From Pseudanabaena sp. BC1403 (GTDB lineage: Bacteria; Cyanobacteriota; Cyanobacteriia; Pseudanabaenales; Pseudanabaenaceae), in the NCBI RefSeq assembly GCF_002914585.1, contig NZ_PDDM01000005.1, forward strand, positions 1-64,000: DNA of 64,000 nt. Direction: 5' to 3'. Both the position numbers and the translations under genes were made by a program. The notes under the pieces were generated by a model. The model was not told the origin of the DNA. It saw only the letters and a list, made by a program, of their open reading frames with translations, and made no database searches. Each line of letters starts with the position of its first letter. Position 1 is the stretch's first letter. Positions 29,867 through 61,060 of this stretch are shown here, in pieces.

Positions 29867-30174
29867 TTTCTTGTCTTGAATTAGATCTGATCCCAATTCT
29901 CAAAATGGCATTGCCACTTTGAGAATTCAAAAACCTTGATGGGTTAAATTTGCAATTCTCATAAGTTTAACTACACTTTAGAGAATTGGTATTAATAGAT
30001 TGTTGTCAAGTGTTAGGTGATTTCCACAAAACAACTTCCCAAGTAGGAGATAGGTAGGGTGGGCGTTGCCTACTTTCCTAATGTCTAAGTTGGGAAAACT
30101 TTTTAGTGGAAATCACATTAGGACAGGCTTACGAATTGCTTCAATACCTAAACTTACTTGAGAGAATCTAAACA

Positions 30175-30753: not shown

Positions 30754-31471
30754 ACTTTTATTCCACTAATTTTTAACTGCCAAAATCAACTAATAAACTC
30801 AATCTAAAATTAGCGATCGCGCTACTTGCTTATCACTATAAATTTCTTTAAAAGGTGTCAGCAAATAATTGATTGAGCAAGTAATTTTATGGCTAAAGCA
30901 AATTTAGTGGTAATGATTTAGTTTGATCTTCAAGATACATTACAACAGGATATTCGCAGAATAATGGTATTCTAAATTACTTTTTTTGTTAAATTGATAT
31001 AGGGCTATTATTTATTTTGATTTCTTTAGTCCTTCTAGATACAACATTTTTAGAGATTATTACTATTAGTAAGCCTCTAGGTTTTCTTGTTAATATTTAT
31101 TGCAATGTATTCGATTGATATTTGAATATTTATATCTCCCATACTAAATATATTTAATCTTTAAATATGGAATATTCCTAAAACTGTGCACCTGTAAATT
31201 TGGAAAAATAGAAGCAATTACAAATTCATAAATTTAAAGGTTGACAACAAAGTTATAGCTGACTTGGAGTAATTAAAATTACGGGTCAAAACCTATGCTT
31301 TTTGTGGGTTTTGCTAGCAATTTTTTAGGATTTATGTTTAATTGCGCTAGCATCCTTGTCAAAATTTTGTTGATATCCTTGGATATTGATAAGTGAGCTG
31401 GATTTGGGCTTCGCCTTTTGCAATTGCAACGATAATTCCTTGATCTTCATTGAGTTGGTATGACTTACAAC

Positions 31472-31575
31472 AATTCACGAAGGTGTTGGCACATTCTTGT
31501 GAATTGAAAATTAGACCTAGTTTAGACCCAGCAAGGTTTTTAAAAGCGCAAAATGGCTATGCCATTTTGTGCTTT
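31472..31575 (-). repeat. A-L-B hairpin module, diverged copy
   Basis: On the minus strand the order is A (stem at 31543-31557/31561-31575, GCACAAAATGGC type, one G-T wobble), linker, then a weakened B stem at 31472-31505. The orientation is the same as transcription of the pentapeptide gene that ends at 31767. Confidence 0.65.
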
Positions 31576-31595
31576 GATGCTACTTACCAAAACTA

Positions 31596-31766: not shown

Positions 31767-32501
31767 TCACAGTAAAAGAGATGCGGGTACATTTTGGGCA
31801 GACATTAAACCGATCGCATTACTCCAATTCGTCGCATAACGACTTATATTTTTACCCCAAAGAATCCCTTCGAGATTTGCGCCTTCGAGATTTACGTTAC
31901 TCATATTGGCATCGCGTAAATCTGCGCCACTAAGATCGGCATTCTGGAGATTTGCGCCACTGAGGTCAGCACCACTAAAATCAGTATTCTGCAACTGCGA
32001 TCGCTCTAAATTTGTAGAATATAGCTTTGCACCCCAAAAAGTCGCATTATTCAAATTAGCCCCTTTTAAGTTTGCTTTCCAAAATATGGCATGACTAGCA
32101 TTAATATTTTGGAAATTTGCACCTTGGAGATTAGCACTATTGAAATTTGCAGAGATCGCATTAGCTCTTTCTAAGTTGGCATAACTGAGATCGGCGAAGC
32201 TAAAAATAGCACTATAAAGATTTGCCTCGCTAAAATTTATTTTAATTAGAGAACCTGTGGCGATCGCACCATTTAAACTTGCTTTAGTTAAATTTGCATA
32301 TTCTAATCTCGCCTCAATTAAATTAGCATGATACAAATCTGCACCTTCCAGATTGGCATAACTTAAATTGACATACCGCAAATCGGCATTATTAAGTACC
32401 GCATTCTGCAATAAGATTAATGTATCTTGATACTCATTTCTCCATTGATTCCAGCCATTTACTCCATTTAGTAGTAGTTGTAATTGTTGTATATCAGTCA
32501 T
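31767..32501 (-). CDS. Pentapeptide-repeat protein
   Basis: A 244-residue protein. From about residue 35 it is an almost continuous series of A(D/N)LXX repeats (NADLRYVNLSYANLEGADLY), predicted to fold as a right-handed quadrilateral beta-helix. The N-terminal 25 residues hold the motif NGVNGWNQWRNEYQD, which also begins the protein at 47695. There is no signal peptide. Pentapeptide proteins have diverse and mostly unknown roles; a few mimic DNA and inhibit gyrase, but nothing here shows that. Confidence 0.9.
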   Translation of the reverse strand: MTDIQQLQLLLNGVNGWNQWRNEYQDTLILLQNAVLNNADLRYVNLSYANLEGADLYHANLIEARLEYANLTKASLNGAIATGSLIKINFSEANLYSAIFSFADLSYANLERANAISANFNSANLQGANFQNINASHAIFWKANLKGANLNNATFWGAKLYSTNLERSQLQNTDFSGADLSGANLQNADLSGADLRDANMSNVNLEGANLEGILWGKNISRYATNWSNAIGLMSAQNVPASLLL

Positions 32502-34290: not shown

Positions 34291-34605
34291 TCGCTAGTAA
34301 TAGCAAAACACAAGATGGCGTAGCCATTTTGTGTTTTTAAAACCCTCATAGGGTTTGGTTTTTAATTCACAGAAGTGTGACAACACTTCTGTGAATTGGA
34401 TGGCTATAGCTATATAAAAGTCTGAAGACCTGATGGCAGAAGGAGGCATCCTCAAAGAATTGACTAAAGCTAAAGACTGGAAAGCTGATCTCAATCGTTA
34501 ATTTGAAGGGGGATTTGGAGAATGGTAATTTTCTTGTGCCCCAAGAATTGTGGGGGCTAGGGGGCGAGAATAGGTAGCTGAGTGCACGTATAGTTCCTAT
34601 TCTAC
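34291..34605. other. 315-base gap with an A-L-B repeat
   Basis: The first 120 bases are the hairpin module (34305-34397). The remainder up to the HEAT-repeat gene has no gene I can support; a 3'-trailing stretch after 34430 has short open frames only. Confidence 0.7.
34305..34397 (+). repeat. A-L-B triple-hairpin module
   Basis: Stem A: AAAACACAAGATGGC at 34305-34319 with 34323-34337, loop GTA, one mismatch. Stem L: AAACCCT-CAT-AGGGTTT at about 34340-34356. Stem B: AATTCACAGAAGTGT at 34364-34378 with 34383-34397, loop GACA, perfect. A flanking CTATA follows. It begins 14 bases after the stop of the ATPase gene. Confidence 0.85.
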
Positions 34606-40848: not shown

Positions 40849-40889
40849 ACGTCCTACTAAACTTGGCGACAACTGTATCCCAATTTTTG

Positions 40890-40985
40890 AAAGTGCAGTC
40901 ACACTTCCGAAAATTAGAAATTAAGCCCAGCAGGGGTTTTGAAGTGTCAAAATGGCTTTGCCATTTTGACACTTGCATTGCTATA
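40890..40985 (-). repeat. A-L-B hairpin module, reversed copy
   Basis: Stem A on the plus strand: AAGTGTCAAAATGGC at 40943-40957 with 40961-40975, loop TTT, perfect. L and B equivalents lie to its left (AGCCCAGCAGGGGTTTT, then a B-like stem near 40890-40915). GCTATA follows stem A. Stem A differs at its base (AGTGTC instead of GCAC) but remains fully paired. Confidence 0.7.
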
Positions 40986-48556: not shown

Positions 48557-48661
48557 GGGTAATACCAAAACATAAAATGGCGTAGCCATTTTATGTTTTG
48601 GTATTACCCTTACTGGGTTTGGTTTGTAATTCACGAAAGTGTGGCAACACTTTTGTGAATT
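48557..48661 (+). repeat. A-L-B triple-hairpin module next to a stop codon
   Basis: Stem A is the longest in the family: perfect 25-bp arms at 48557-48581 and 48585-48609 (CATAAAATGGC core), loop GTA. L has TTACCCTTACTGGGTTT. Stem B is at 48628-48642/48647-48661, loop GGCA, one G-T wobble. The TAA stop is at 48553-48555. A short palindrome (GTAGTGGCAATT) follows at 48670-48697. Confidence 0.85.
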
Positions 48662-48700
48662 GGTATAGGGTAGTGGCAATTTATGAATTGTCACTACGTT

Positions 48701-49936: not shown

Positions 49937-50322
49937 TCAGTTCACCAGATATCCACACACTATAGCGATTTAGAGTTTGTCAACGTCAAACTCTAAACTC
50001 AAAAGCCTTACTGGATTTGATTTTTTGAGTTTCAAACGAGCATACACTCAATTAAAAACTGCTATAGGGCAAGATTTTAACCGCATTTTGTCACTAAGTG
50101 AAACCAAATTTTGATCAAAAGAATTGCTGAAAATTATTGCAATCCGCAAAAAAAAATTAAATCTTTAACTTTTAATAATATTTCTGTATCTTTTAATACC
50201 AAAGATTGTATATATAATAATTTCATGACATACTTTGTTCTTGAACTCTAAAATTAGCACTTAAAAAATTGCTTTATAAAGTTGATTGATAAAGTTCATT
50301 GATAAATTGTAGAAATAAAGCT
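49937..50322. other. 386-base gap with a diverged hairpin module
   Basis: Bases about 49960-50066 resemble an A-L-B module bracketed by TATAGC and GCTATA: A-like stem TAGAGTTTG at 49971-49979/49987-49995, then an L-like AAAAGCCTTACTGGATTT. The rest is AT-rich and probably holds the promoters of the M23 gene (leftward) and of the gene at 50323. Confidence 0.6.
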
Positions 50323-51635: not shown

Positions 51636-51734
51636 GCGTATCCACCATTTTTGTATGGTTCTTACTACAGTATATATATTCCTATCAACATAACTGCTAA
51701 GCATCAAAATATACAGGAATTAAGCTTTTATACC

Positions 51735-51768
51735 AATTCACAAAAGTGTGACAACACTTCTGTGAATT
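51735..51768 (-). repeat. Stem B (with linker) of the A-L-B module behind ugd
   Basis: 15-bp arms at 51735-51749 and 51754-51768 (AATTCACAAAAGTGT), loop GACA, one G-T wobble. On the minus strand a linker like TTACAGGATTTGGTTTT precedes it, starting about one base after the ugd stop at 51787. Stem A is missing, as if the coding end replaced it. Confidence 0.75.
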
Positions 51769-51786
51769 AAAACCAAATCCTGTAAG

Positions 51787-53133
51787 TTAACGCCCAATGC
51801 CAATATATTGATATCCCAGAGACTTAAGGGCTTTGCCATCAAGGAAGTTACGAGCATCGATAATTACAGGATGTGCCATCAGAGTCAGCATCTTAGAATA
51901 GTCGATCGCGAGAAACTCTTGCCAATCTGTCACCAATACCACTGCATCACAACCGTCTGCTAATCGCTCTAGATCGGTTTCCACAATCACATTCGTGAAG
52001 CCTTGACGCAATCCTGATTGAGAAACTAGCGGATCATAGGCTTTAACTCTTGCACCCAAACGATTGAGCTGATCGATTAAGGTCAACGCAGGTGCGTCAC
52101 GCATATCATCAGTATCTGGCTTAAAGGTCATTCCCAATAAACCTATGGTTTTACCCTTGAGGATTTTTAGAGCTTGCTGTAGCTTCTCAACAACTAGCGT
52201 TCGCTGTAATTCATTCACCCGTACACAAGCTTTCAAAATCTCTGTGGAATAGCCATAGTCCTCAGCGGTGTAGATTAGAGCCGAGACATCTTTGCCAAAG
52301 CAGGAGCCGCCCCAGCCAATACCAGCTTGCAAGAACTTAGAGCCAATACGCGAATCTAAACCAATCCCCTTGGCAACTTCTCTAACATCTGCACCAACAC
52401 GATCGCAAATATTCGCAACTTCATTAATAAAGCTAATCTTGGTAGCCAGAAATGCATTTGCTGCATACTTAATCATTTCGGCTGAGTTTAAATCAGTAAC
52501 TACCACAGGCACTGGTGGCAGAGTCTTGTCCTCAGCAAAAGAGCGATCAATAATTGGTGCATAAAGCTCTTGCATGAGCTTAAGAGCACGATCGCTGCCA
52601 CTGCCAACCACAATGCGATCGGGATTAAACGTATCAAAAACGGCTACACCCTCGCGTAGAAACTCTGGGTTACTAACCACATCAAACTGAATCTGATCGA
52701 TATTACTTTTGCCTAACATTCCATCCATTACAATCATGCGTACCCAGTCGCCAGACCCAATTGGCACTGTAGACTTGTTGACGATCACACGATATCCATC
52801 GGTAAGACTTTCGCCAATACTCCGTGCAACTGCCTCTACATAGCGCATATCGCTGCGACCATCAGCTAGAGATGGCGTACCCACAGCAATGAATAGAATC
52901 TCACCATGATTTACACCCGCCGCAATATCTGTTGTAAATTCGATTTTCCCTTGACGAATTGACTCAGCTATAACTTCAGGCAATCCTGGCTCATGGATGG
53001 GCGATTGTCCTGACTTCATCAGCTTGACTTTTTCCTCGTTATTATCGACGCAAATCACATCATGACCAATGTAGGCGAGACAAGCACCTGTGACTAAACC
53101 CACATAACCAGTTCCAATTACACAAACACGCAT
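51787..53133 (-). CDS. ugd: UDP-glucose 6-dehydrogenase
   Basis: About 448 residues from the ATG at 53133; a TTG two codons upstream is less likely. It oxidises UDP-glucose to UDP-glucuronate using two NAD+. The N-terminal Rossmann motif VCVIGTGYVGLVTGACLAYI is clear. The catalytic cysteine is in GIGWGGSCFGKDVSAL, and the C-terminal UDP-binding domain contains LLGMTFKPDTDDMRDAPAL. It is the last gene of a tight minus-strand operon with the exporter and uxs, and its product is the substrate of uxs. Confidence 0.96.
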   Translation of the reverse strand: MRVCVIGTGYVGLVTGACLAYIGHDVICVDNNEEKVKLMKSGQSPIHEPGLPEVIAESIRQGKIEFTTDIAAGVNHGEILFIAVGTPSLADGRSDMRYVEAVARSIGESLTDGYRVIVNKSTVPIGSGDWVRMIVMDGMLGKSNIDQIQFDVVSNPEFLREGVAVFDTFNPDRIVVGSGSDRALKLMQELYAPIIDRSFAEDKTLPPVPVVVTDLNSAEMIKYAANAFLATKISFINEVANICDRVGADVREVAKGIGLDSRIGSKFLQAGIGWGGSCFGKDVSALIYTAEDYGYSTEILKACVRVNELQRTLVVEKLQQALKILKGKTIGLLGMTFKPDTDDMRDAPALTLIDQLNRLGARVKAYDPLVSQSGLRQGFTNVIVETDLERLADGCDAVVLVTDWQEFLAIDYSKMLTLMAHPVIIDARNFLDGKALKSLGYQYIGIGR

Positions 53134-53214
53134 GTTCAATTACCTAATAATTTTTTGCTGTTCAGAATCAAATCTCAGTTCAATAGTCAGAAACTGTTGA
53201 ACTGAGCTTGGTTT

Positions 53215-60859: not shown

Positions 60860-60900
60860 GCAAGAATGCGATCAGGCGATCGGCATCTGTAGCTTTTACC

Positions 60901-60993
60901 AAAACACAAAATGGCTTCGCCACTTTGTGTTTTTAAAACCCTTACAGGGTTTGGTTTTTAATTCACAGAAGTGTTGTCACACTTTTGTGAATT
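60901..60993 (+). repeat. A-L-B triple-hairpin module (reference copy)
   Basis: Stem A: AAAACACAAAATGGC at 60901-60915 with 60919-60933, loop TTC, one A-C mismatch. Stem L: AAACCCT-TAC-AGGGTTT at about 60936-60952. Stem B: AATTCACAGAAGTGT at 60960-60974 with 60979-60993, loop TGTC, one G-T wobble. The module of about 93 bases lies in the same orientation as psbA. Confidence 0.88.
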
Positions 60994-61005
60994 GGTATTA
61001 AAACC

Positions 61006-61060
61006 TAAAACCCAAAAGAGATTTGCGTCGCGAAGCGACGCAAATCTCTTTTGGGTTTTA
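61006..61060. repeat. Perfect 26-bp hairpin upstream of the Nudix gene
   Basis: Arms at 61006-61031 and 61035-61060 (TAAAACCCAAAAGAGATTTG outer, CGTCGC inner), loop GAA. The outer AAAACCCAAA motif is shared with the hairpin behind ribE. It lies 50 bases before the Nudix start codon. Confidence 0.88.

Follow-up and report, generated by a model that had tools for sequence, protein, structure and literature searches.

The 64,000-nucleotide stretch of Pseudanabaena sp. BC1403 analysed here (the window; contig NZ_PDDM01000005.1, positions 1 to 64,000) carries a module of three successive hairpins, A, L and B, copies of which lie behind several of its genes. By Pfam, the flanking genes encode a photosynthetic reaction centre protein (psbA), a T2SSE ATPase, two pentapeptide proteins, a RecQ-type helicase and a UDP-glucose/GDP-mannose dehydrogenase. 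The original prediction placed the module at 60901-60993, 34305-34397 and 48557-48661, and its account of the three stems and their loops there is confirmed from the sequence. Each of these three best copies folds far better than its own shuffles (z of -6.9, -10.3 and -9.3), and a scan for stem A alone, with up to 3 mismatches allowed, finds 6 places in the window where 100 shuffles yield 0.00 on average; no Rfam family matches the window at its gathering score. A covariance model, R1, was built from 31 copies of the Pseudanabaena genome and used to search both window and genome. In the window it finds seven distinct places with E <1e-7, of which three lie on the minus strand, and weaker or partial matches besides. 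The copies and their parts are as follows, TSD standing for the target duplication at the ends.

60894-61000, plus strand: full copy behind psbA (R1 116.6 bits)
60897-60997, plus strand: element proper of the psbA copy; left flank TTT (an eroded TSD), right TSD TTA
60901-60933, plus strand: hairpin A of the psbA copy; its outer arm and TACC together form the left terminal inverted repeat
60936-60952, plus strand: hairpin L of the psbA copy, AAACCCT-TAC-AGGGTTT
60960-60997, plus strand: hairpin B of the psbA copy with GGTA; the outer arm of B forms the right terminal inverted repeat
34298-34402, plus strand: full copy, 10 nt past the stop codon of the T2SSE ATPase gene (R1 106.6 bits); left TSD TAA, right end eroded
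48560-48668, plus strand: full copy, 7 nt behind a pentapeptide gene (R1 100.0 bits)
29888-29994, plus strand: diverged copy, absent from the original prediction (R1 67.6 bits)
31466-31582, minus strand: diverged copy past the 3' end of the pentapeptide gene 31767-32501 (minus strand), sense (R1 65.1 bits)
40876-40981, minus strand: diverged copy behind the RecQ-type helicase gene (plus strand), antisense (R1 72.5 bits)
51729-51816, minus strand: partial copy, an L remnant and B (R1 44.1 bits)
117-157, no strand assigned: lone hairpin A, matching the pattern with 2 mismatches (covariance model 31.0 bits for 121-153)

The eroded copies reported near 31472 and 40890 are genuine, but in both R1 finds the A-L-B order on the minus strand. 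Stem A at 40876-40981 has, as was claimed, changed to AAGTGTC and is still fully paired, and the copy at 29888-29994 has AATTCTC in the outer parts of both stem A and stem B. Two partial sites had also been listed: that at 121-153 has stem A, but as a lone hairpin only (117-157), and that at 51735-51768 is the B part of a reversed, minus-strand copy from which stem A is missing, and which lies in sense orientation at the 3' end of a UDP-glucose dehydrogenase-type gene (51787-53139, minus strand). The site at 49960-50066, listed as another eroded copy, is a different element, with ends CTATAGC...GCTATAG and mainly the L core in common with the module (40.7 bits). We record it as a further MITE-like unit, and the common core suggests that modules have been exchanged between families. 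Directly past the psbA copy, at 61009-61059, there is a second hairpin family (AAAACCCAAAAGAGA...GCGAAGC...), and several A-L-B copies are flanked by hairpins with other stems and a similar core.

A dispersed 101-bp unit and its insertion sites

The genome (5.51 Mb in 88 contigs) contains at least 150 R1 matches, the weakest of those listed scoring 75.6 bits, and flanks were taken for 133 of the 150 listed copies, 17 being left out. The unit has the form TACCAA...TTGGTA and spans 101 bp between the TSDs in the usual 107-nt copy (123 of 133; the 10 of other lengths were excluded from the pair and loop counts given below), with terminal inverted repeats TACCAAaaCACAAA and TACCAAttCACAAA. The 3-bp flanks are TNA and are the same on both sides in 111 of the 133 copies; where TNA stands on both sides (119 copies), the middle base agrees in these 111, against 49.9 in shuffles, a count that none of 10,000 shuffles reaches. 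TAA (60) and TTA (42) dominate among the duplications, TGA and TCA accounting for 5 and 4, and three tandem pairs of copies have a TSD in common.

Empty sites were sought with joined flanks, 194 queries (133 from the genome itself and 61 from relatives) giving 17 alignments. The element occupies a dispersed repeat, GATGCGTTA^CGTTGC, at C30:54351, and at three other places this repeat is empty and holds one TNA; two further copies have empty counterparts. The clean empty sites are those of the insertion L191_4852 against three other places and of L146 and L160 against L181. For L191_1548 and L175 the site is empty in a relative, with damaged junctions; L063 gave 4 ragged rows, two of them overlapping in place, and 6 rows from L165 and L176 represent tandem copies and were set aside. 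We note separately that four copies, L169 (C6:10022), L119 (C1:156227), L181 (C31:19717) and L213 (C18:93097), all in G000, have a common following flank, TAAgagatagctag, and that three of them are preceded by tatagcaatg, apparently the same insertion point in another dispersed repeat. Stem A also occurs by itself, as a palindrome of about 41 bp bordered by direct TAA duplications (L226 at 1501-1541, L044 near 93-135); such sites are possibly very small mobile units or internal deletions.

The three-stem module is thus a 101-bp MITE with at least 150 copies. The original prediction had favoured RNA structure over a transposon; the TSD-flanked insertions and the empty sites, together with the IS630-type ends and the random orientation described below, speak against that preference. 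Within the genus, each of the 22 other genomes searched has between 2 and at least 103 matches at E<=1e-6, and 15 genomes of other families have none at that threshold (103 candidates scored per genome). All 87 stretches found with the exact core belong to Pseudanabaena or to 'Phormidium tenue' FACHB-1050. The phage sequences searched contain no match. Copies are found on the Pseudanabaena plasmids NZ_AP017566.1, NZ_AP017563.1, NZ_CP112876.1 and NZ_CP112877.1, with no annotated feature beneath them. A search of open-licence papers by title and beginning of abstract found no description of the element.

A candidate IS630-type parent

Relatives of an IS630-type transposase, which scores 111.9 bits on the IS630 NCBIfam model (cut-off 100) and matches Pfam DDE_3, are present in 10 of 21 genus genomes, including that of BC1403, where they lie at three contig ends. 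The transposase is followed in 20 of 22 loci by a right-end motif of the type TACCAAATCACAAAAGAGAGGCAACAGATA, preceded by TWA in 18 of the 20. An end-to-end IS copy, in L282, is 1,150 bp long with TTA on both sides, its reading frame being split into two ORFs. The IS left ends are TACCAAAACACAAA in L284 and L275 and TACCAAAACACCAT in L282, and the hairpin A end agrees with these at 14 of 14 bases (L284, L275) and 12 of 14 (L282); the hairpin B end agrees with the IS right end, TACCAAATCACAAAAG, at 15 of 16. The sequence common to MITE and IS extends over only about 14-16 bp, and the ends of the IS itself look unpaired by eye. From this agreement we infer that the IS630-type transposase would mobilise the MITE by recognising the common ends. 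A search of the BC1403 genome for the N-terminal half of this transposase, run without a positive control, gave no match.

Other transposases were considered as the parent and rejected. PF13340 has no match in the BC1403 genome and matches in 15 of 21 genus genomes, PF13359 likewise has none here, and PF01609 has 8 here; in the loci examined, none of these transposases has TACCAA ends on both sides. An IS630 remnant adjoining one PF13340 match (L242) provided the lead to the IS630-type parent. Pairs of TACCAA ends 0.6-3.5 kb apart have no recognisable transposase between them in the loci examined, as judged by eye from translations.

The system is similar to the IS630 (Tc1/mariner) family, of which ISY100 of Synechocystis is an example, in its DDE transposase, short terminal repeats and TA-rich target. 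ISY100, a studied member of the family, is described as duplicating TA (PMC2170065), and a 3-bp duplication is therefore, in our reading, unusual for IS630: instead of the family's TA dinucleotide we find TNA, duplicated by the MITE and also flanking the IS. Among type I MITEs the pneumococcal RUP, as described in PMC3049150, is comparable in being about 100 bp long with terminal inverted repeats, TSD and IS630-like ends, but each end of the A-L-B element is itself a long hairpin in which the arms change together and the loop flips. The group 1 MITE of Anabaena sp. 90 is likewise cyanobacterial and is drawn with three sets of inverted repeats; it is filed in that account as type II without a matching IS (PMC3542288), and we set it apart by description only.

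REPINs and other RAYT-type elements are not known to leave a target duplication. Movement of the A-L-B unit as a REPIN/REP-type single strand by a RAYT (Y1) transposase is accordingly extremely unlikely, given a direct 3-bp duplication with variable middle base and IS630-type ends. What the unit shares with the RAYT-associated REPINs, as these are described in PMC3116915, is an inverted pair of terminal hairpins spread as a unit, with high copy number and intergenic position.

Position and orientation relative to genes

For this analysis genes were longest-ORF calls, not annotation. Only 3 of the 133 copies overlap an ORF call and 5 have no gene on one side; the remaining 125 comprise 72 between co-directional genes, 33 between convergent and 20 between divergent genes, where 74, 22 and 29 are expected from intergenic bases (p 0.015); measured against the number of gaps the departure is not significant (p 0.18). 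Copies would persist mainly between genes because insertions into genes or promoters have presumably been removed.

The original prediction had the A-L-B order running with transcription and had, beforehand, set a random orientation against its own reading. The order does run with transcription in most window copies, but genome-wide the orientation is random, 34 copies in co-directional gaps being sense and 38 antisense. The tendency to sit behind stop codons is borne out, with a sense preference very close to them: within 20 nt of a stop codon the A side faces the gene in 23 copies and the B side in 4 (p 0.0003). The relatives lean in the same direction, 12 versus 7, which is not significant alone (p 0.36; strict pattern, 44 usable copies from 87 loci).

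These counts raise the question of whether the element acts as a mobile terminator, sense copies behind stop codons being kept and hairpins A and L with their U-tracts ending or protecting the transcript. Besides the 23 to 4 bias, there are some hints in its favour. With cut-offs chosen after looking, no native terminator stands between stop codon and element in 52 of 67 sense copies versus 37 of 71 antisense ones (p 0.002), so that 34 of 71 antisense copies versus 15 of 67 sense copies lie beyond a native terminator. Using a scoring formula taken from general knowledge, terminator scores above 0 are found for 23 of 133 copies in sense and 22 of 133 in antisense, against 17 of 400 random stretches, and the sense median is the higher (-5.0 versus -12.5). 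In the psbA copy, hairpin L with GGTTTTT is terminator-like on the plus strand only. Nevertheless the scores are borderline and differ little between the strands (the terminator of psbA itself scores 38.8), the native-terminator contrast is not significant for copies more than 20 nt from the stop codon (p 0.12), and the bias in the relatives falls short as noted above; we consider this explanation possible but doubtful. We read the data as a modest effect at the RNA level, limited to copies that share a transcript with a gene, and not as the reason for the element's existence: a minor extra effect, possibly on termination or the formation of 3' ends, may give sense copies an advantage immediately after a stop codon. 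The SPRITE repeat of Streptococcus pneumoniae is similar in being dispersed, terminator-like and concentrated near the 3' ends of genes, but it is described as consisting of one 18-bp duplex and a long U-rich tract, and that description gives no established TSD (PMC3049150).

Paired changes, inverted loops and the case for template switching

The paired base changes on which the original prediction was founded are genuine, although weak among close copies and strong only across the genus. The 31 close copies of the BC1403 genome have 2 pairs with double changes versus 1.7 in shuffles, and a covariation score of 0.059 versus 0.051. In a genus-wide alignment of 129 rows (A2), which was fitted to the structure and in which about 9 of the 129 rows are opposite-strand or shifted duplicates of copies already present, 31 of 42 pairs have double changes against 13.0 in shuffles, with 254 double-change cells against 49.4. 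The signal is strong in A and B; L contributes 3 such cells and the closing stem 16. The tip of stem A, AAATGGC-NNN-GCCATTT, is mostly constant while the outer half varies and stays paired, occurring as AAGTGTC, AATTCTC, AATTCCC, AAGTTAAG and AAAGCTG with mostly matching arms (a tally that pools A2 with the genome's own copies, so that the three best window copies may count twice). The paired changes include many transversions and few intermediates, as at a pair with AU 86, UA 29, CG 4, GC 2, GU 1 and other 4.

Because the copies are related, the counts that follow are not of independent events and the p-values are optimistic. With five inherited variable pairs excluded, stem A has 9 Watson-Crick double changes in 1599 cells versus 0.7 expected if the two sides changed independently, and stem B has 4 versus 0.5. 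In the same BC1403 copies no such change is seen in L (738 cells, 1.1 expected) or in the closing stem (615 cells, 0.9 expected), and in both the sides change independently. In another count of stem A, a single inherited change, at pair 11, makes up 21 of the 33 double changes. One-sided changes outside three inherited pairs give G.T and A.C about equally (21 and 25 in A, 16 and 18 in B, 26 and 19 in L). At the three inherited pairs themselves, on the A-L-B strand, G.T outnumbers A.C by 128 to 12, an excess that we ascribe to a few ancestral copies and that selection on RNA would also predict.

The loops provide a second kind of evidence. Among the genome's own copies, a loop with a reverse-complement partner occurs in 109 of 123 copies for A, 114 of 123 for B and 0 of 123 for L; in the relatives (105 non-window rows among the first 108 of A2) the corresponding counts are 99 of 104, 88 of 102 and 0 of 104. 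As controls, partners by plain reversal were found for 0-2 copies and by plain complement for 0-10. Such pairs in the genome include GTA/TAC (31/38), GCA/TGC (27/7), TGTC/GACA (68/10) and TGCC/GGCA (23/5), and in the relatives GTA/TAC (45/37), AGCC/GGCT (11/4) and CGTC/GACG (11/5); two copies are identical except that the A loop is GTA in one and TAC in the other. Loop state is in part associated with the arms. Pair 18-30 is not Watson-Crick in 23 of 27 copies with GCA loops versus 2 of 7 with TGC (p 0.007), 21 of the 27 having G.T, the commonest state of that subfamily, and at pair 75-92 TGTC and GACA loops differ similarly (60 of 68 and 5 of 10; p 0.009). For GTA/TAC (p 0.17) and TGCC/GGCA (p 0.12) the association is not significant.

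The palindromes can also outrun the element. In 7 of 12 A hairpins examined, pairing extends 3-12 nt past TACC/GGTA into the TSD or flank (L227 12 nt, L235 6, L228 and L233 5, L231 4, L230 and L232 3), and in the other five by 0-1 nt. In the window, the inner arm of A in the copy at 48560-48668 continues as GGTATTA, the reverse complement of the start of its own terminal inverted repeat plus TSD.

Insertions at orthologous sites gave 18 rows, which reduce to 8 distinct pairs once reciprocal rows and L082/L263 (apparently the same record) are dropped. One pair is L142 (C5:179048) with L094 of Pseudanabaena sp. UWO311, in which the flanks are 99/99% identical and both copies have TAA duplications. 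The tip of A is GTGGC-TGC-GCCAC in L142 and GTAGC-GCA-GCCAT in L094, and the rest of the element is identical; a single switch, with the left arm as template for the right arm and loop, would yield the L142 state, the direction being inferred. In L080/L083, L and B are nearly the same and the arms of A differ together: the outer arm of L083, GGTTTTAAAAG, is the complement of its inner arm plus the start of L, where L080 keeps the terminal repeat, and pairing from the loop centre reaches 23 nt in L083 versus 16 in L080. In L019/L103, A is changed on one side, and the two ends of the B loop carry changes that match each other; L047/L106 differ on one side of B, and L206/L034 at a single loop base; L010/L085 differ at many positions and are perhaps separate insertions, and the elements are identical in L156/L113 and in L002/L081. 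Loop flip and arm change are therefore seen together in only 1 of the 8 distinct pairs, L142/L094.

Template switching is known from work on quasipalindromes. One study, on the histories of RNA genes, regards a compensatory change accompanied by loop inversion as the strongest possible support for template switching, and its rRNA table contains 6 such cases (PMC8794818). We read the covariation of A and B as having arisen mostly at the DNA level because the Watson-Crick double changes of the BC1403 genome fall in A and B and not in L or the closing stem, and because of the lack of a G.T excess, the inversion of loops and the run-on of palindromes. Both ends of the element are hairpins of about 15 bp; during replication the nascent strand would switch template inside such a hairpin, so that one arm is rewritten to complement the other. 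In some cases the loop would be flipped as well, and in some the copying would continue into the terminal repeat and target duplication. L, with arms of 7 bp, shows none of this. Loops could alternatively flip by recombination between copies inside the palindrome, or by opening and rejoining of the hairpin.

Two other accounts of the pairing have to be weighed. The first, that the module is a structured RNA (a 3'-UTR element or small RNA) kept by selection on base pairing, would account for the stable fold, for the excess of double-change cells in A and B across the genus and the 16 in the closing stem, for the sense bias right behind stop codons and for the G.T excess at the inherited pairs; selection for pairing could likewise remove intermediates. 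It does not, however, lead one to expect TSDs and empty sites, a random genome-wide orientation, the lack of any Watson-Crick double change in L and the closing stem of the BC1403 genome, or G.T as rare as A.C among the other one-sided changes, and neither loop inversion, palindromes extended into the TSD nor a joint change of loop and arm in situ is predicted by selection on RNA; we regard it as improbable. The second account, that pairing in A and B is selected as a DNA hairpin (cruciform) serving as substrate or signal for transposition, with loops flipping during movement, is consistent with the covariation of the terminal hairpins where L hardly covaries, and with a constant tip on an outer stem that varies yet stays paired. 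Against this, the ends of the IS630-type parent look, by eye, to have no such hairpin, and L142/L094 combines a flipped loop with re-matched arms at an orthologous insertion whose flanks and TSD have not changed, so that movement is not needed for a loop to flip. This second account is unlikely, if somewhat less so than the first.

The family is thus probably one of non-autonomous cut-and-paste MITEs in which the paired changes of A and B reflect mostly template switching at the DNA level, with a minor RNA-level effect near stop codons. As to whether it constitutes a natural record of template switching, in which mutation without RNA selection has yielded strong, significant RNA-like covariation through joint, repeated re-matching of arms and inversion of loops across hundreds of hairpin copies, we lean slightly towards this view.

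For functional RNA structure, covariation counts as the best evidence, and in this family it is strong in a mobile DNA element that also bears the marks of template switching. If the template-switching reading is true, a covariation test alone would class the A-L-B element as a structured RNA family. The case is a warning for repeat-rich bacteria, where RNA families should not be proposed from covariation alone. The family is also an addition to the elements linked to IS630, its 3-bp TNA duplication being unusual, and its many replicate hairpins, in different places and strains, are material with which template switching may be tested.
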